NCBI RefSeq assembly: GCF_041346945.1
Contig: NZ_CP166850.1
Coordinates: 4,882,501-4,946,500 of the forward strand
Reading direction: 5' to 3'
DNA from: Amycolatopsis sp. cg9
GTDB lineage: Bacteria; Actinomycetota; Actinomycetes; Mycobacteriales; Pseudonocardiaceae
Length of the DNA: 64,000 nt
Below the pieces are notes generated by a model. That model did no database searches. It was given only the letters and a program-made list of their open reading frames with translations, and was not told the origin of the DNA. The position numbers were made by a program, and so were the translations under genes. Positions 7,408-63,650 of this stretch are shown here, piece after piece; position 1 is the first letter of the stretch; every line of letters starts with the position of its first letter.

Positions 7408-7417
7408 GCGCCCCAAT
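7408..7417. repeat. Left 10 bp of 85-bp repeat copy 1, cut by the IS
   Basis: GCGCCCCAAT is the left end of the 85-bp family. The other 75 bp resume at 8490 on the far side of the IS. Removing the IS and one AAT restores an element of exactly 85 bp. Confidence 0.85.
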
Positions 7418-7524
7418 GGGGTTGTTTCATCGTGGTTGTGGCTGGTTGGGGCGGTGTGGCTGGGTGGATGAGGTTGCGTGGCAACACCTGCCCGCGCGGA
7501 CCAGCGTGGTGGCCCGGACATAGG

Positions 7525-7576
7525 CGAAGCCCTCGGCAAGATCGAGATGTGAGTCAATCACCCGCCGAGGGCTTCG
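7525..7576 (+). promoter_or_regulatory. Hairpin around the transposase start codon
   Basis: CGAAGCCCTCGGC (7525-7537) and its exact complement (7564-7576) bracket the GTG at 7549. In a transcript that enters from outside the IS this would place the start region in a stable stem-loop. Several insertion sequences use such structures to block translation of read-through messages. That role here is inference. Confidence 0.5.
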
Positions 7577-8427
7577 GTTCTCTTTCCTACCAGGTCACCC
7601 TTCCCCTCTCACGACAGACCCTGCAGCTGACCGCCGAGCTGATCCGCACCCATCGCCGGCGGCGGCGCTCCCGCTGGCGCAAAGCCACCCCGGCCGGGCA
7701 GGCCCTGGTCGTGCTGGCGGTGCTGCGCCACGACCCCCGCCTGGCCCACATCGGCGCCGGCCACGGTGTCTCAGCGGCCACGGTGCGCCGGTGGGTGCTG
7801 GAAGTCATCGCCCTGCTCGCCGCCCGAGCCGCACGGCTGGACCGCGTGCTGCGCGGCCTGCTCACCCGAGGTGAAGCAGTGGTGCTGGTCGATGGCACCC
7901 TGATCCGCACCCGCCGCCGCACCGGGCGAGCGAACCGCGGCAACTACAGCGGCAAACACAAACACCACGGGCTGGTCGTGCTCGCGTTGACCGACGAGGC
8001 AGGCCGGTTGCTGTGGGTATCGGCGGTGCTGCCGGGCAAGACCGCCGATATCACCGCCGCCCGCCGGCTGGGGCTGCGGGAACGGCTGCACGCTCACGGT
8101 CTGACCCCGGCCGGAGATAAAGGGTTTCACGGCTGGCACAAAGACGTCCGCGGCACCCGCGACTGCGGTATCTGCGGCGGGGTGTGTGAGCAGATCGTGC
8201 TCACCCCTGACAAAGCCGAGGCGAATCGGCCGTTGACTCCGGGCCAGCAGCAGGCCAACGCGGCGTTCGCTGCGATGCGCTGCGCTGTTGAGGGCGGCTT
8301 CGCCGCCCTCAAAGCCTGGCGGGTGCTGGACAAACTCCGCCTGCATCCCCGCCACGCCACGACGTTGCTGCGGGCTCTGCTCGTGCTGACCCAGCACGAG
8401 CAGAGCGTCCGACACGCCCAGGCCTGA
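7549..8427 (+). CDS. IS5-family transposase (DDE_Tnp_4 type)
   Basis: A 292-residue transposase starting at GTG. Residues 50-85 form a helix-turn-helix (GVSAATVRRWV). The DDE triad is visible as Asp115 (VLVDGT), Asp190 (PAGDKGFHG) and Glu248 (CAVEGGFAALK). The segment GNYSGKHKHHG is typical of the DDE_Tnp_4 subgroup. The gene is a single intact frame, unlike relatives that need a programmed frameshift. Nothing is missing, so the element may still move. Confidence 0.92.
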   Translation: MSQSPAEGFGSLSYQVTLPLSRQTLQLTAELIRTHRRRRRSRWRKATPAGQALVVLAVLRHDPRLAHIGAGHGVSAATVRRWVLEVIALLAARAARLDRVLRGLLTRGEAVVLVDGTLIRTRRRTGRANRGNYSGKHKHHGLVVLALTDEAGRLLWVSAVLPGKTADITAARRLGLRERLHAHGLTPAGDKGFHGWHKDVRGTRDCGICGGVCEQIVLTPDKAEANRPLTPGQQQANAAFAAMRCAVEGGFAALKAWRVLDKLRLHPRHATTLLRALLVLTQHEQSVRHAQA

Positions 8428-8489
8428 ACCAATACCAGACTTGGTCAACCCGCCCTGACCAGCACAGACCACGATGAAAAAACCCCAAT

Positions 8490-8564
8490 GTGGCGTTCGG
8501 TGCGTCAGACGCACCCAATGTGGCGTTCGGTGCGCTGGATGCACCCAACGCCACATTGGGGCGC
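8490..8564 (-). repeat. 85-bp 3'-end repeat, copy 1 (remaining 75 bp)
   Basis: Continues the element begun at 7408. On the plus strand it reads arm, hairpin, arm, hairpin, inverted arm; the arm is AATGTGGCGTT and the outer end is GGGGCGC. It lies 5 nt after the stop of the minus-strand DedA gene. Read in the direction of that gene, it has the same order as the other copies. Confidence 0.88.
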
Positions 8565-8569
8565 TTTGG

Positions 8570-9223
8570 TCAGGGCACGCGCTCGGGTTCGCGGTTCGGG
8601 GGCGGCGCTGCCAGGGCCTTGCGCTTCTTCAGGCGGAGCAGGAAGAAGACCGCTGCCGCCGCGAGGATGCCCACCACGATCAGGCCGCCCGTGTTGAGGG
8701 CGCCCTCGATGCGTTTCGCCGCTTCGCCCAGTGCCGCGCCGATGCCGATGTGGATCAGGGACCAGCAGAAGGCGCCCGCCGCCGCGGCGGGGAGGAACTT
8801 GCGGAACTCCAGGCCCGAGGTGCCCGCCGCCGCCGGGGTCAGGGTTCGGACCACCGGCAGGAAGCGGGCGAAGAACACCGCCCACGCGCCGCGGCGTTCG
8901 AGGACGCCGGTGGCTTTGTCCCAGGCGTCGAGGCCGTACTTGCGGATCAGCTTCGTCTCGCGCAGGCGGGGTCCGAAGCGGCGGCCGATGAAGTAGCCGA
9001 GCGCGTCGCCCGCCGTCGCGCACACGGTCACCACCGCCCACAGGGCGAGGAAGCGCGGCACGGTGTTCGCCGTCGTCGCCGCGATCAGCAGGCCGGATTC
9101 GCCCGGGGCCAGGAAACCCAGCCCGATCGTGCATTCGGCGAACACCAGGCCGCCGGTGGCCGCGACGAGCCCCGGTTCCGGGAGTCCTTGCAACCAGCTG
9201 AGGAGGTCCGAAACCAGGGCCAT
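8570..9223 (-). CDS. DedA-family membrane protein
   Basis: A 217-residue polytopic membrane protein of the DedA (SNARE-associated/VTT) family. Visible family features are the FAECTIGLGFLAPGESGLLIA stretch near residues 28-48, the GDALGYFIGRRFG loop near 72-84, and the amphipathic FFARFLPVVRTLTPAAAG re-entrant segment near 116-133. The C-terminus is hydrophobic with a basic tail. DedA proteins act in membrane lipid (undecaprenyl or phospholipid) flipping and membrane homeostasis; which lipid is handled here is unknown. The gene stands alone, with the 85-bp repeat just after its stop. Confidence 0.92.
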   Translation of the reverse strand: MALVSDLLSWLQGLPEPGLVAATGGLVFAECTIGLGFLAPGESGLLIAATTANTVPRFLALWAVVTVCATAGDALGYFIGRRFGPRLRETKLIRKYGLDAWDKATGVLERRGAWAVFFARFLPVVRTLTPAAAGTSGLEFRKFLPAAAAGAFCWSLIHIGIGAALGEAAKRIEGALNTGGLIVVGILAAAAVFFLLRLKKRKALAAPPPNREPERVP

Positions 9224-12545: not shown

Positions 12546-13481
12546 GTGGACTTGAGGATCTTCACCGAGCCCCAGCAGGGGGCCTCCTACGACGACCAGC
12601 TGCGCGCCGCCAAGGCCACCGAAGCGGCCGGCTACGACGCGTTCTTCCGCAGCGACCACTACCTGAGGATGGGTTCGGCCGACGGCCTGCCCGGCCCGAC
12701 CGACGCCTGGATCACCCTGGCCGGCCTGGCCCGCGAGACGAACCGGATCCGGCTCGGCACGCTCGTCACCGCGGCGACGTTCCGGCACCCCGGGCCGCTC
12801 GCCATCTCGGTCGCGCAGGTCGACCAGATGTCCGGCGGGCGCGTCGAGTTCGGGCTCGGCTCCGGCTGGTACGACGCCGAGCACGAGGCGTACGGCCTGA
12901 CGCTGCCGCCGCTGAAGGAGCGGTTCGACCGGTACGCCGAGCAGCTCGAGATCATCACCGGCCTGTGGAAGACCCCGGTGGGCTCGACGTACTCCTTCGC
13001 CGGTCAGTACTACACGCTGACGGACTCGCCCGCGCTGCCGAAGCCGGCGCAGCAGCCCGCCCCGCCGGTGATCATCGGCGGCGGTGGCAAGAAGCGCACG
13101 CCGGCGCTGGCCGCGCGGTTCGCCGACGAGTTCAACCTGCCCTTCGCCGACGCCGAAACCGCGGCCGCGCAGTTCGCCCGCGTCGAGGCGGCGGCCGCGG
13201 AGATCGGCCGCGACCCCAAGGAGATCCTGCGGTCGGTGGCGCTGGTGATCTGCGTCGGCCGGTCCGAGGAGGAGGTCGCGCGCCGGGCGTCGGTCCTCGG
13301 GCGGGACGTCACCGAGCTGCGCGCGAACGGCCTGGCCGGGACGCCCGCCGAGGTCGTCGACCGGATCGGGCAGTGGCGGGAGAAGACCGGGATCACCCGG
13401 CTCTACCTGCAGCTGCTGGACATGCGGGACCTGGACCAGATCGAGCTGATCGCCGCGGAAGTCGCACCCCAGCTGGACTAG
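12546..13481 (+). CDS. LLM-class F420-dependent oxidoreductase
   Basis: A 311-residue TIM-barrel enzyme of the bacterial luciferase-like superfamily, actinobacterial F420 type. Typical segments are the N-terminal beta strand LRIFTEP, FFRSDHYLRM near residue 38, the RIRLGTLVTAATFRHPG block near 70-86, GGRVEFGLGSGWYDAEHEAYG near 99-118, and VIIGGGGKKRTPALAARFADE near 176. It starts at GTG 5 nt after the TetR gene, so that regulator is the likely controller. The TAG stop overlaps the first base of an 85-bp repeat. The substrate is unknown. Confidence 0.9.
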   Translation: MDLRIFTEPQQGASYDDQLRAAKATEAAGYDAFFRSDHYLRMGSADGLPGPTDAWITLAGLARETNRIRLGTLVTAATFRHPGPLAISVAQVDQMSGGRVEFGLGSGWYDAEHEAYGLTLPPLKERFDRYAEQLEIITGLWKTPVGSTYSFAGQYYTLTDSPALPKPAQQPAPPVIIGGGGKKRTPALAARFADEFNLPFADAETAAAQFARVEAAAAEIGRDPKEILRSVALVICVGRSEEEVARRASVLGRDVTELRANGLAGTPAEVVDRIGQWREKTGITRLYLQLLDMRDLDQIELIAAEVAPQLD

Positions 13482-13565
13482 CGCCCCAATGTGGCGTTCG
13501 GTGCGTCTGACGCACCGAACGCCACATTGGGTGCGTCTGACGCACCCAATGCCACATTGGGGCGC
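13481..13565 (+). repeat. 85-bp 3'-end repeat, copy 2
   Basis: The first base is the last base of the preceding TAG. The order is arm (AATGTGGCGTT), hairpin (GGTGCGTC/GACGCACC), inverted arm, hairpin, inverted arm; the outer ends are GCGCCCC and GGGGCGC. It lies between convergent genes and ends 4 nt before the lipB stop. It can form a stem of more than 20 bp, so it probably ends transcripts. Confidence 0.92.
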
Positions 13566-13569
13566 TTGG

Positions 13570-14313
13570 TCAGTTCTGGAGGGCGAAGGTGACGCCGGGG
13601 GCCTGCGGGGCCTCGGGGCGGGGGAGCCAGCGGTCCTCGCTCACCGGCAGCTCGCCGTCGAGGGCCGCCAGGACGGCGTCGCGGGCCAGGGGGAGCACCG
13701 CCTCCACCGCGACGTCCCGCTGGAGCTCGTAGGACAGCGAAGTCACGCCCGCGTCGCGGATGCCGCACGGGACGATGCTGTCGAACGCCGCCAGGTCGGC
13801 GTTGCAGTTCAGTTCGAAGCCGTGCATCGTCACGCCGCGCTGGACGCGGATGCCGATGGCCGCGATCTTGCGCTCGATGCCGCGGTCGTCGGCCGGGATC
13901 CAGACGCCGCTGCGGCCCTCCACGCGCCCGCTGGTCACACCGAGCTGGTCGCACACGTGGATCAGCGCCTCTTCCAGCCGCCGGACGTAGTGGACGACGT
14001 CGATCGGGTCGGCGAGCTTCACGATCGGGTAGCCGACCAGCTGGCCAGGACCGTGCCAGGTGATCTTGCCGCCGCGGTCGACGTCGATCACCGGGGTGCC
14101 GTCCGTGGGGCGGTCGGCCGGTTCCGTGCGCTTGCCCGCGGTGTACACCGACGGGTGCTGCAGCAGGAACATCGTGTCCGGCGCGGTGCCGTCGGCGCGC
14201 TCGGTGAGCCGGCTTCGCTGGAGCTCCCAGGCTTCGGTGTAGTCGATCGTGCCGAGCTCCCGGACGTCGACGGGTTCGGTGCTGGCGCGGCAGGAGGTGC
14301 GGGAAGAACTCAC
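13570..14313 (-). CDS. lipB: Lipoyl(octanoyl) transferase
   Basis: A 247-residue enzyme that moves octanoyl groups from acyl carrier protein to lipoyl domains. Family features are [17 protein letters not shown] near residues 45-62, [11 protein letters not shown] at 87-97, the active-site Cys183 in VPCGI, and Lys149 in [10 protein letters not shown]. The GTG start overlaps the stop of the PAP2 gene by 4 bp (GTGA), so it is the last gene of a coupled three-gene unit. The synteny epimerase-lipB resembles Rv2216-Rv2217 of M. tuberculosis. LipA lies downstream on the same strand. Confidence 0.96.
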
Positions 14314-24138: not shown

Positions 24139-24223
24139 GCGCCCCAATGTGGCGTTGGTTGCGTCAGACGCACCCAATGTGGCGTTCGGTGCGTCTGACG
24201 CACCGAACGCCACATTGGGGCGC
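24139..24223 (-). repeat. 85-bp 3'-end repeat, copy 3
   Basis: On the plus strand the order is arm, hairpin, arm, hairpin, inverted arm, the reverse of copies 2 and 4. It starts 7 nt after the stop of the minus-strand pepA gene, so read with that gene it has the same order as they do. Two substitutions (GGTTGCG for CGGTGCG) distinguish it. Confidence 0.92.
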
Positions 24224-24230
24224 TTGAGAC

Positions 24231-25730
24231 TCAGCCGTTGGCGGCGATGTCCGCCAGGACCGCGGCGATCGTGCGGACCGGGACGCCCGTGCCGCCCTTG
24301 CCGGTGTAGCCCCAGGGCGAACCGGTGTTGAACGACGGGCCGGCGATGTCGATGTGGACCCAGTCGAGGCCGTCGGCGACGAACTCGCGCAGGAAGATCC
24401 CGGCGGCGAGCATGCCGCCCCAGCGGTGGCCGGTCACGTTGGCCAGGTCGGCCAGCCGCGAGTCGAGGTCGGCGCGCAGTTCCTCCGGCAGCGGCATGGC
24501 CCAGCCGTTCTCGCCGGTGGCCTGCATGATCGTGGCGACGCGGTCGCGGAAGTCGTCCGAGCCCATCACGCCGGCGGTGCGGTTGCCGAGCGCGACGACC
24601 TGGGCGCCGGTCAGCGTCGAGGTCTCGATCAGGTAGTCCGGGTTCTCCTCGGCCGCGCGCACCATGGCGTCGACGAGCACGAGCCGGCCCTCGGCGTCGG
24701 TGTTGAGGACCTCGACGGTCTTGCCGCCGTACATCGTCAGGACGTCGCCCGGGCGGTAGGAGGTGCCCGAGGGCAGGTTCTCCGCCAGCGGGATGTGCGC
24801 GACGACCTCGAGCGGGTACTTCAGCTTCGCCGCCAGCACGACGGCCGCGAGCACGCCGGCCGCGCCGGACATGTCGGAGGTCATGTGGTCCATGTTCGCG
24901 GCGGGCTTGAGCGAGATGCCGCCCGAGTCGAACGTGATGCCCTTGCCGACCAGCGCGACCTTCTTGGCGGCCTTGGCGGGCTTGTAGCCGATGCGCACCA
25001 GGCGCGGCTGGCGGGACGAACCGCCGCCGACGCCGAGGATGCCGCCGAAGCCCTTGCGCTTCAGGGCTTTCTCGTCGAGGACCTCGAACTCGAGGCCGTT
25101 GTCCTCGGCCAGCTTCTTCGCGCGGTCGGCGAAGGAGGCCGGGTAGAGGTCGTTCGGCGGGGTGTTGATCAGGTCGCGGGCGGTGAGGACGGCTTCGGCG
25201 ATGGAGGTCGCGGCCTTGAGCGTCGCCTTGTGCTCGCGGGCGGTGCCGTCGGCCGGGCTCGCGAAGTCGACCTTCGCGACCGGGGCGTCACCCTTCTCGG
25301 AGCGGTAGGCGGTGAAGACGTAGGAGCCCATGACCGTGCCCTCGACGGCGGCCTGCAGGTCGAGCTCGGACAGCGTCACGAGCGCGCGGTCGGTGCCGGC
25401 CAGCGCGCGGCCGGCGGCCCCCGCGGCGCGGCGGACCTGCTCGGGGGTGACGCCGTCGCCCGGCTTGCCGAGGCCGACGGCGAGCACGACGGCGGCCGGG
25501 AGCTTGCCCAGCGTCGGGACCTTGACGACCTCTTCGGCCTTGCCGCTCGCGCCGAGGGTGGCCAGCAGGTCGGCGAGGCGCCCGTCGAAGGCGGCGTCGA
25601 CGGCGGCGGCGCCGTCGGCGAGGACCGGGCCGTCCTCGCCAGCCAGGGTGCCGATGACGACCACGTCGGCGCGCGTCTTGGCCAGTGCCTCCCCGGTGTT
25701 GTCGGACAGGGCGAGCTTAGGCACGGTCAC
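24231..25730 (-). CDS. pepA: Leucyl aminopeptidase
   Basis: A 499-residue M17 metallo-aminopeptidase, cytoplasmic, expected to be a hexamer with two metal ions. The metal and catalytic motifs are present: [31 protein letters not shown] near residues 262-291 and the signature [14 protein letters not shown] near 343-356. The N-terminal third is the macro-like domain. The start is GTG. It corresponds to pepB (Rv2213) in M. tuberculosis, in the same relative position between the E2 gene and ilvE. It ends 7 nt before an 85-bp repeat. Confidence 0.95.
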
Positions 25731-61328: not shown

Positions 61329-63560
61329 ATGATCGAGATCGTTCGTGGCGAACACGACACCGGCCCGCCGAAGCACCCCCACCTCCGGGAGAACCTCAAG
61401 CACGACCTCCTCGCGTCGATAGTCGTCTTCCTCGTCGCCGTCCCCCTGTCCCTCGGCGTGGCCTTCGCCGCCGGGGCGCCGCTGCTCTCCGGCCTCATCT
61501 CCGCCGTCGTCGGCGGGCTGGTCGCGAGCCTCTTCGGCGGGTCGCCGCTGCAGGTCAGCGGGCCCTCCGCCGCGCTCACCGTGGTGCTGGCCGACACGAT
61601 CGCCACCCACGGCTGGCCGGTCACCTGCGCGATCACCGTCGCCGCCGGCCTCCTTCAAATCCTCTTCGGGCTGACCCGGCTCGCCCGGGCCGCGCTCGCC
61701 GTTTCGCCCGCCATCGTGCACGGGCTGCTCGCCGGCATCGGGGTCACGCTCGTGCTGGGGCAGCTGCACGTCGTGCTCGGCGGCTCGGCGCAGGGCTCCG
61801 CGCTCGCCAACGTCGTCGCGCTGCCGCGGCAGATCGCCGCGCACCACGACCAGGCCGTGCTGATCGGGGTCGTCACCCTCGCCGTGCTGGTCGCCTGGCC
61901 GCGGCTGCCGAAGGCCGTCCGCCGGGTGCCCGCGCCGCTGGCCGCCGTCGCGCTGGCCACCGGGCTGTCCGTCGCGACCGGCATGTCGCTGCCGCGCGTC
62001 GACCTGCCGGCCGGGCTGCCCGCGCTGCACGTCGTGCCGCGGCTGCCGGACGGCGGCTGGGGCGGGTTCGCGCTCGCCGCGCTCACCATCGCGCTCATCG
62101 CCGGCCTGGAAAGCCTGCTGTCCGCCGTCTCGGTCGACAAGCTCCGCGGCGGCCCGCGCACCGACCTCGACCGCGAGCTCATCGGCCAGGGCGCGGCCAA
62201 CGTCGCCGCCGGCGCGCTCGGCGGGTTCCCGGTCACCGGCGTCATCGTGCGCAGCATGACCAACTACGAGGCGGGCGCGCGCACGCGGCTGTCGGCGATC
62301 CTGCACTGCGCCTGGATCCTCGCCGCCTGCCTGCTGTTCACCGGCGTGCTGCGGCTGATCCCGCTGGCCGCGCTCGCCGCCCTGCTGGTCTACGTCGGCA
62401 CGAAGCTCGTGAACGTCAACGGGCTCAAGGAAGTCCGCCGCCACGGCGACCTGCCGGTCTACGTCGTCACGCTCGCCGGCGCGGTCGCCGTCAACCTGCT
62501 GACCGGCGTCGCGGCGGGGATCCTGCTCGCGCTCGCGATGATGCTCCGGCGGATGATCTTCTCCGGGATCCACGTCGAGACCGACGGCGAGCGCCACCGC
62601 GTCGTCATCGAAGGCGCGCTGACGTTCCTGTCCGTGCCGCGGCTGACCCGCGTCCTCGCCGCGGTGCCGCCGCACGCCGAGGTCACCCTCGAACTGCTCG
62701 TCGACTACCTCGACCACGCCGCGTTCGACTGCCTGCGCGGCTGGCAGCAGGCGCACGCCGGGCCGGTGACGGTCGACGAGATCGGGCACCCGTGGTTCGA
62801 ACGCGGCAGCTCGGGCGCGCCGACCGTGCGCCGCAGCGTCGCCGCGCGGGTCGTGCCGCGGTGGCTCGCGCCGTGGTCGCAGTGGCAGGCCGAGCACGTC
62901 GTGCTGCCCGCCCAGCGCACGGCGAGCTCGCTGCTCTGCCGCGGCGCTTCGGAGTTCCAGCGCCGCACCGCGCCACTGCTGCGCGACACCTGGAGCGGGC
63001 TGGCGCACGGCCAGCAGCCGCACACGCTGTTCATCACCTGCGGCGACGCGCGGATCGTGCCCAACCTGATCACCACCAGCGGGCCGGGCGACCTGTTCAC
63101 GGTCCGGAACATCGGCAACCTGGTGCCGCCGCCGGACGGCGACGACTCGTCGGTCGGCGCGGCGATCGAGTACGCGGTCGGTGTCCTGGGCGTGGCGGAG
63201 ATCGTGGTGTGCGGGCACTCGGGCTGCGGCGCGATGAAGGCGCTGCTCGGCCAGGCCCCGGACGGGCTCGAACAGCTCGGCAGCTGGCTCCGCCACGGCG
63301 AAGCGACGCTCCGGCGCCGCGCCCGCGAAGCGCCGCTGCTGCTCGGCGGCGACCGCCCGCCCGCCGAGGCCGACCAGCTCGCGCTGCAGAACGTGGTGCA
63401 GCAGCTGGAGATCTTGCGCGCCTACCCGGTGGTGGCGGCCGCTCTCGAGCGGGGCGCGCTCCGGCTCACCGGCATGTACTTCGACGTCGGCGCCGCGCAG
63501 GTGTCCCTTTTGGACGACGCGGCCCGAGGCTTCGTCCCGGCGGGCGCGCTGGAGCACTGA
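61329..63560 (+). CDS. SulP transporter fused to a beta-carbonic anhydrase
   Basis: A 743-residue fusion. Residues 20-410 are the SulP (SLC26) permease with the family blocks [28 protein letters not shown] and GPSAALTVVLADTIA. Residues about 420-500 are a STAS-like region. After a linker, residues about 545-743 form a beta-carbonic anhydrase with zinc ligands Cys571, His630 and Cys633 and the Asp573-Arg575 pair (TCGDARI; CGHSGCG). The pairing points to bicarbonate uptake and conversion at the inner membrane face, though sulfate is possible. It ends 5 nt before an 85-bp repeat. Confidence 0.94.
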   Translation: MIEIVRGEHDTGPPKHPHLRENLKHDLLASIVVFLVAVPLSLGVAFAAGAPLLSGLISAVVGGLVASLFGGSPLQVSGPSAALTVVLADTIATHGWPVTCAITVAAGLLQILFGLTRLARAALAVSPAIVHGLLAGIGVTLVLGQLHVVLGGSAQGSALANVVALPRQIAAHHDQAVLIGVVTLAVLVAWPRLPKAVRRVPAPLAAVALATGLSVATGMSLPRVDLPAGLPALHVVPRLPDGGWGGFALAALTIALIAGLESLLSAVSVDKLRGGPRTDLDRELIGQGAANVAAGALGGFPVTGVIVRSMTNYEAGARTRLSAILHCAWILAACLLFTGVLRLIPLAALAALLVYVGTKLVNVNGLKEVRRHGDLPVYVVTLAGAVAVNLLTGVAAGILLALAMMLRRMIFSGIHVETDGERHRVVIEGALTFLSVPRLTRVLAAVPPHAEVTLELLVDYLDHAAFDCLRGWQQAHAGPVTVDEIGHPWFERGSSGAPTVRRSVAARVVPRWLAPWSQWQAEHVVLPAQRTASSLLCRGASEFQRRTAPLLRDTWSGLAHGQQPHTLFITCGDARIVPNLITTSGPGDLFTVRNIGNLVPPPDGDDSSVGAAIEYAVGVLGVAEIVVCGHSGCGAMKALLGQAPDGLEQLGSWLRHGEATLRRRAREAPLLLGGDRPPAEADQLALQNVVQQLEILRAYPVVAAALERGALRLTGMYFDVGAAQVSLLDDAARGFVPAGALEH

Positions 63561-63565
63561 CCGAA

Positions 63566-63650
63566 GCGCCCCAATGTGGCGTTCGGTGCGTCAGACGCAC
63601 CGAACGCCACATTGGGTGCGTCCAGCGCACCCAACGCCACATTGGGGCGC
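63566..63650 (+). repeat. 85-bp 3'-end repeat, copy 4
   Basis: Order as in copy 2: arm, hairpin, inverted arm, hairpin, inverted arm. It starts 5 nt after the stop of the SulP-carbonic anhydrase gene and points the same way as that gene. Confidence 0.92.

Follow-up and report, generated by a model that had tools for sequence, protein, structure and literature searches.

Palindromic elements in the 64-kb window

The window (the whole 64-kb stretch of DNA that was analysed) contains four copies of a palindromic element of 85 bp, all of which were found where the original prediction had placed them. Copy 1 is divided into a left fragment (7408..7417, minus strand) and a right fragment (8490..8564, minus strand) by an IS element (7418..8489, plus strand; ends ambiguous by a few bases) carrying an ORF for a DDE_Tnp_4 transposase (7711-8427, plus), and its right fragment lies 5 nt from the stop codon of a gene for a VTT-domain (DedA-type) protein (8570-9223, minus). 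Copy 2 (13481..13565, plus) fills the gap between the genes for a luciferase-like monooxygenase (12546-13481, plus) and an LplA/B-type ligase (13570-14313, minus). Copy 3 (24139..24223, minus) is located 7 nt from the stop codon of an M17 peptidase (pepA-type) gene (24231-25730, minus), and copy 4 (63566..63650, plus) begins 5 nt past the stop codon of a sulfate permease-carbonic anhydrase gene (61329-63560, plus). The arm sequence AATGTGGCGTT has 12 matches in the window with at most one mismatch, compared with a mean of 0.34 in 100 shuffles.

The proposed placement was 0-7 nt behind stop codons; the measured distances to the nearest stop are 5, -1, 7, and 5 nt for copies 1-4, the value of -1 arising in copy 2, where the last base of the TAG codon is the first base of the element. 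The description of copy 2 as following an F420-type enzyme gene is correct for the stop at 13481 (plus) but incomplete, since a second, convergent stop lies at 13570 (minus) and the copy thus follows two genes of opposite direction. Copy 1, when the IS is set aside, is likewise located between convergent genes. An Rfam scan of the window at gathering thresholds yielded rRNA only. A neighbouring E2-type protein shares 97% identity with that of A. eburnea, and its nearest named relatives are Amycolatopsis species (records of the source genome itself may have been omitted).

In copy 2, the outer arms A1 (13481..13498, plus; GCGCCCC plus the arm) and A3 (13548..13565, minus; containing GGGGCGC) could pair as an 18-bp outer stem, and the middle arm (13518..13528, minus), the direction of which is the fork-biased bit described below, forms the loop of the predicted long RNA hairpin. 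This hairpin is the predicted RNA minimum (-70.8 kcal/mol; -51.2 with the last arm unpaired) and would be a nested quasi-palindrome, in which 18 outer pairs and two stem segments of 8 bp enclose the middle arm as the loop. With DNA parameters, a branched fold in which the first two arms are paired reaches -48.2 and the long hairpin -43.4. The competing folds that had been proposed do exist, RNA parameters favouring the long hairpin and DNA parameters the branched fold. A GC-rich stem-loop is thus predicted behind the stop codon (the -70.8 kcal/mol fold), and a U-tract after the stem is absent, the consensus at this position being T, then T/C, and then G-rich; two other convergent gaps of the same genome do carry TTTTT. 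The flank consensus is CRA...TYG, without GTAG, and CGTC lies inside the stem rather than in an unpaired tag. Selection for an extended stem in the flanks was considered and rejected, as within-copy pairing was no better than pairing with shuffled partners.

Size and anatomy of the family

The home genome (G000; 10.6 Mb, two contigs) contains 122 matches to the middle arm with at most one mismatch, a few of which lie within multi-unit copies, and none to the reversed control pattern. The genome-wide count that had been called for is roughly 115-120 copies, of which a sample of 100, taken from truncated position-ordered listings, was read. The supposedly exact length of 85 bp is the dominant size (87 of the 100 copies, including three that an IS splits or in which a few end bases are replaced) but is not invariant: three copies measure 115 bp and two 145 bp, in steps of 30-bp units, and eight have two recognizable arms. 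The arm spacing within a copy is also 30 bp, and a run of six middle arms, 30 bp apart, was found in another species. In an alignment of 75 intergenic copies, the arms are nearly invariant, the 18-bp ends that constitute the terminal inverted repeats are largely conserved, and clear conservation stops ~2 bases beyond the 85 bp.

The asymmetry of the element was borne out, and two asymmetries coexist in the same copies. One is the direction of the middle arm together with its two inner spacer halves; the inner halves CCG...GGG stay one unit with the middle arm in 87/87 (G000) and 64/64 copies (G030, a genome of another species), regardless of the outer halves. The other, referred to here as the outer frame, is which of the outer spacer halves starts with C, exactly one of them doing so in 82/87 and 61/64 copies, respectively. 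These loop and frame counts are for 85-bp copies only. The two small hairpins described as joining the arms are not all perfect: in nearly every case, an outer half of a spacer reads CGG or GGT/GGG. The long stem retains its 19/67 mismatch in 82/87 and 61/64 copies. Among the small loops, GTCCCAC accounts for 42/128 in G030 and 0/174 in G000, GCTGGAC for 6/128 and 68/174, and GTCAGAC, frequent in both, for 52/128 and 58/174. Some 85-mers are identical at several sites (e.g. loci L021, L023, and L024). Separately, a tandem array of partial elements with a period of ~84 bp and different filler sequence is present at positions 1750-2200 of locus L206 (G030). A similar insert of ~60 bp was also seen by eye inside the element in two species (L101, near dedA, and L106, at the gap corresponding to that of copy 2) and is possibly a second-level insertion into the hairpin.

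Distribution and traces of mobility

A longer arm pattern was detected in 77 of 390 genomes of the taxonomic family, namely 60 of the 80 genomes of the home genus and 17 genomes from eight further genera; 18 to 131 matches occur in five of the latter genomes. The number of end matches per genus genome ranges from 0 to 534, and arm variants differ among species. No Y1_Tnp (RAYT-type) transposase was detected at E 0.001 in any of the 80 genus genomes, while the control was positive in 5 of 14 known genomes; a RAYT-driven REP was set aside for want of such matches. A search for target-site duplications (75 copies, 128 comparisons) revealed no convincing one (best z 3.3; identity 33% versus 24% in shuffled sequences), and a MITE with target duplication was set aside on this basis. 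The IS with the DDE_Tnp_4 transposase occurs in the fetched sequence as three near-identical full copies (99.8%), inserted at the same point of the arm (window 7418-8489; L047 2582-3660; L074 2482-3558).

Gene context and the 3'-end slot

Gene positions were obtained, independently of any annotation, with our own gene caller, which was based on codon usage and trained on the sequence that had been fetched. In the home genome, 87 of the 100 copies are intergenic, i.e. outside predicted genes, and these are distributed to 46 convergent, 36 tandem, and 5 divergent gaps, whereas neighbouring element-free gaps of these loci comprise 37 convergent, 179 tandem, and 60 divergent ones (n = 276; P = 7e-14 for context). 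The contexts in G030 are similar (43 convergent, 34 tandem, and 5 divergent; n = 82) but include more wide gaps. The expected position close behind stop codons was recovered in both genomes: the nearest stop is at most 15 nt away in 55/87 and 49/82 intergenic copies, respectively. In tandem pairs of G000 (n = 35), the copies sit a median of 15 nt behind the upstream stop, and the downstream start is a median of 91 nt away. Convergent pairs of G000 with readable direction (n = 41) have a median of 24 nt left besides the element, and 26 of these 41 leave at most 27 nt.

Orthologous sites, the comparison of which had been suggested, were compared at three places (copy 2, pepA, and dedA), and other species hold other hairpins there. 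For the monooxygenase/lipoyl ligase-type gap of copy 2, both genes with 1-150 nt between them were present in the window and in 20 of 32 loci. Elsewhere this gap contains either the family in another form (L106, L109, and L128) or quite different hairpins; 20 of the 21 short gaps (our own included) fold with z < -3, and the family is present, by eye, in 4 of the 21. At the 3' sides of pepA and dedA, a like hairpin exchange was seen by eye, unscored. Another palindrome, GTGAAGGCCNCCTT, is a recurring alternative. Its end matches number as many as 590 in one genome, equivalent to ~300 copies on the assumption of two ends per copy, and at many listed places of genomes G007 and G008 the starts of these matches are 33 bp apart. 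This palindrome has at least one match in 71 of the 80 genus genomes (one or two may be chance) and at least 40 in 30 of them. A trade-off between the family and the GTGAAGGCC family was not apparent, there being no correlation over the 80 genomes (rho 0.11, P = 0.32).

The family occupies a 3'-end hairpin slot, chiefly between convergent genes and usually with no room for another terminator. The presence of other hairpins at the same slot in other species fits a 3'-end (terminator-like) role, and the probable function of the element is that of a 3'-end structure or of a terminator working in both directions. As far as can be judged from sequence, these comparisons suggest that gene-end hairpins have been exchanged between species at one slot and that the element may be an interchangeable 3'-end hairpin.

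The remaining 13 of the 100 copies lie in predicted genes of G000. Twelve of them share a reading phase and encode PNVAFGASDAPNATLG-like peptides, and nine of the twelve are located just behind a GTNAH-type motif, which is typical of ketosynthase ends, adding ~29 residues (the phase was read in G000 only). The thirteenth, at L077, overlaps a gene end in another phase. Copies in giant genes were noted at L035-L040, L007, L012, and L026 (384-463 kb of G000) and at L259-L261 (G030). The L012 gene, which was the one tested from the 384-463 kb cluster, contains KS, AT, and DH domains; the other tested genes that hold copies are NRPS-like (L002), caspase-domain (L076), and PKS-like (L094) genes.

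Direction of the middle arm relative to the replication fork

Orientation with respect to fork movement is biased for the middle arm, whereas the outer frame shows no such bias. In G000, the direction switches near 2.5 and 7.9 Mb, and dnaA was then located at 2.58 Mb. When forks were assigned by taking dnaA as the origin and its antipode as the terminus, 65 of 92 middle arms were fork-aligned (P = 9e-5, a post hoc value because the pattern in this genome was first noticed by eye). The test direction was fixed beforehand for five other genomes, which gave 63/97 (G025), 59/85 (G030), 12/19 (G010), 14/20 (G031), and 35/55 (G071). The last three are not significant singly (P = 0.36, 0.12, and 0.06, respectively) and together amount to 61/94. 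Pooled, the five later genomes yield 183/276 fork-aligned middle arms (one-sided P = 3e-8) and all six 248/368, with more than half aligned in each; all these P-values are optimistic, as the genomes share ancestry. Unreadable middle arms (8/100 in G000 and 7/87 in G030) were left out of the orientation counts. The G025 count is based on 100 of 105 matches merged to 97, and that of G071 on the clusters left after 10 of 65 with mixed direction were dropped. Of the 85 clusters of G030, 80 were fetched for reading and gave 87 arrays.

The original prediction attributed the direction to the gene that the element follows. Agreement with this gene was found at 37 of 65 tandem sites of G000 and G030 (P = 0.32), i.e. 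23/35 (P = 0.09) and 14/30, respectively, so the regularity among the copies in the window was a small-sample effect. Since lengths vary and no gene-orientation bias was found, the gene-directional idea fails by the rule set for it in the original prediction. At convergent sites, where gene direction cannot act, 56 of 82 middle arms in the two genomes are fork-aligned (P = 0.001), and where tandem genes are oriented opposite to fork movement, 21 of 30 middle arms still agree with the fork (P = 0.04). By class, 24/41 convergent (P = 0.35, not biased alone) and 30/35 tandem copies are fork-aligned in G000, and 32/41 convergent and 19/30 tandem copies (P = 0.20, not biased alone) in G030. Among the genes in the fetched G000 loci, 281 of 488 (58%) are fork-aligned.

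The outer-frame bit is random with respect to the fork (40:42 in G000 and 28:33 in G030; 68/143), and its state does not depend on that of the middle bit (Fisher P = 1.0 and 0.18, respectively). Insertion of a fixed element in a preferred direction is therefore disfavoured as the cause of the middle bit. The five longer arrays found in the 100 copies of G000 are all fork-aligned. A rise of alignment toward the terminus was not consistent in the three genomes in which it was sought.

Sites shared between two species

Between G000 and G030, 28 pairs of shared sites were identified, of which 25 were used (three were omitted for other lengths); pairs inside polyketide synthase genes were excluded as paralogue matches. 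The middle arm differs at 13 of the 25 sites. At the 22 sites with a readable frame, both bits differ in nine, the middle arm alone in three, the frame alone in four, and neither in six. Fork alignment in one species does not predict that in the other at these sites (both 10, G000 only 6, G030 only 8, and neither 1; Fisher P = 0.35). At site 3061183, the 22-nt left flank is identical in both species and the interior is inverted. Many other flanks beside the element do not align between the two genomes, so some of the 'shared' sites may be repeat insertions. These comparisons indicate that the interior has been turned or replaced over time at fixed slots, the loop frequencies differing between the species and the middle arm pointing the other way about half the time, and they are compatible both with turning in place and with re-insertion. 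Since the middle and frame bits are independent, inversion of the whole interior as the sole process was rejected; the constancy of the inner halves likewise contradicts a model in which the outer arm is simply copied by fold-back.

Possible origins of the fork bias

In the reading that we favour, with a probability of about one half, the elements are a REP-like palindromic repeat family of Amycolatopsis in which the interior of the slot is turned or replaced, probably by strand-biased template switching. The likeliest cause would be that the polymerase switches template at the hairpin during replication and thereby inverts the spacer of the inverted repeat; switching would be commoner on the leading strand, as in E. 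coli, and this would tie the turning of the loop to the fork. According to the accessible parts of the relevant papers, template switching between the arms of inverted repeats homogenises arms and inverts spacers (PMC8604942, PMC8794818) and is more frequent on the leading strand in E. coli (PMC6357072, PMC8794818). Spacer inversion by itself is symmetric and thus yields no biased balance alone; a biased steady state would need one orientation to turn or be lost faster. Among the results that count against this reading, the 19/67 stem mismatch is kept, whereas switching should tend to erase mismatches, and DNA parameters rank the long hairpin below the branched fold. If flipping alone sets the two-state balance, the 248/368 aligned copies correspond to a flip-rate ratio of ~2 to 1. 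We put forward only tentatively the idea that the ~100 hairpin loops per such genome flip spontaneously, with a steady-state direction set by replication, and would thus naturally register both replichore direction and the strand bias of template switching.

A different process could leave the same bias if either orientation arises and the anti-fork one is quicker to lose either the entire palindrome or one 30-bp unit, hairpins forming more readily on one template strand. The 30-bp direct repeats inside each copy, the existence of two-arm, 115-bp, and 145-bp forms, and the fork alignment of all five longer G000 arrays agree with such orientation-dependent stability, and Trinh and Sinden reportedly observed strand-dependent palindrome deletion in E. 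coli. It leaves the 13 differences at the 25 shared sites unexplained unless copies also flip or re-insert, however, and an anti-fork long array is present in G071 at 2.754 Mb. We take this rival seriously but rate it clearly below template switching. Appreciably less probable is a mobile element that enters single-stranded DNA at the fork with an orientation bias, as IS200/IS605 elements do, by means of some as yet unrecognized type of transposase: identical 85-mers at several sites, the range of 0 to 534 end matches per genus genome, and species-specific arm variants would suit such an element, whereas the randomness and independence of the outer frame, the lack of a Y1_Tnp match in all 80 genus genomes, and the lack of a convincing target duplication argue against it. 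The middle arm might also be a selected polar site, e.g. for a DNA translocase or a fork-related protein, like KOPS or Chi. Alignment of more than half of the copies in each of six genomes would accord with this, but only about two thirds are aligned, no consistent rise toward the terminus was seen, and alignment in one species does not predict that in the other; this explanation is quite improbable.

Two further explanations concern the placement of the copies. The element could be a neutral parasite tolerated where it is least harmful, i.e. in promoter-free 3' gaps and flexible protein linkers. It is rare in divergent gaps (5/87 versus 60/276 control gaps), and the 12 in-phase copies in large genes, nine of them just after the GTNAH-type ketosynthase motif, could be viewed in the same way. 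We nevertheless consider neutrality less likely than not, because the tightness of the convergent gaps (at most 27 nt left for another terminator at 26/41 sites) and the other hairpins filling the copy-2 slot elsewhere suggest that the element replaces, rather than joins, a terminator. The 3'-end module of the original prediction, directed by the followed gene, is refuted for direction, and we give it hardly any weight in that respect, while its 3'-end placement stands (55/87 and 49/82 intergenic copies within 15 nt of a stop). The gene-directed idea holds for all four copies of the window once copies 1 and 2 are each assigned to a single gene, but agreement at only 37 of 65 tandem sites and differing directions beside the same genes at shared sites contradict it.

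Comparison with known repeat systems

Rickettsia palindromic elements can lie in frame inside proteins, whereas the present family is mainly intergenic and its in-frame copies are mostly in a polyketide synthase cluster. Among the listed results of a literature search, which covered few subscription papers, no publication on this family or on a fork-biased loop stood out. The family resembles the REP/BIME systems of enterobacteria and pseudomonads, which, in the accessible parts of the descriptions (PMC1525189, PMC12306157), likewise comprise many palindromic copies located behind stop codons and between convergent genes, form multi-unit arrays, and are specific IS targets. IS elements that target REPs are known (PMC1525189, as far as its accessible text goes), and the IS described above interrupts three copies at one arm point. 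The family differs from REP/BIME in having no Y1 transposase match in the 80 genus genomes, a larger unit with a loop arm, a fork-biased loop, and a flank consensus without GTAG. CGTC-tagged REPs (PMC3733652, consulted in part) are also palindromic and apparently without a dedicated transposase, and CGTC/GACG occurs at the small loops of the present element, but within the stem and not as an unpaired tag. CGTC repeats are reported from five phyla, and Amycolatopsis or Actinobacteria do not appear in the main text of that paper (PMC3733652).

The family is thus REP-like and unusual both in being without a detectable RAYT and in having a fork-biased loop, which suggests that palindromic repeats of this kind may be maintained in the absence of a REP transposase. 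The firmest result of this analysis is that on orientation; the terminator role and the template-switching cause are inferred. Published inversions of inverted-repeat spacers by template switching involve the same change, a turned loop between like arms, and, in the accessible parts of the papers, are single events mostly in loops of a few bases (PMC8604942, PMC8794818); here, more than 100 copies have a fork-biased loop arm of 11 bp, and turning in place is a candidate process only. In the same portions of the literature, template switching at hairpins has so far been studied with reporters and single genomic events, whereas a large family with a readable direction bit, present in several species and on both replichores, would allow genome-based estimates of its strand bias, rate, and genetic control.
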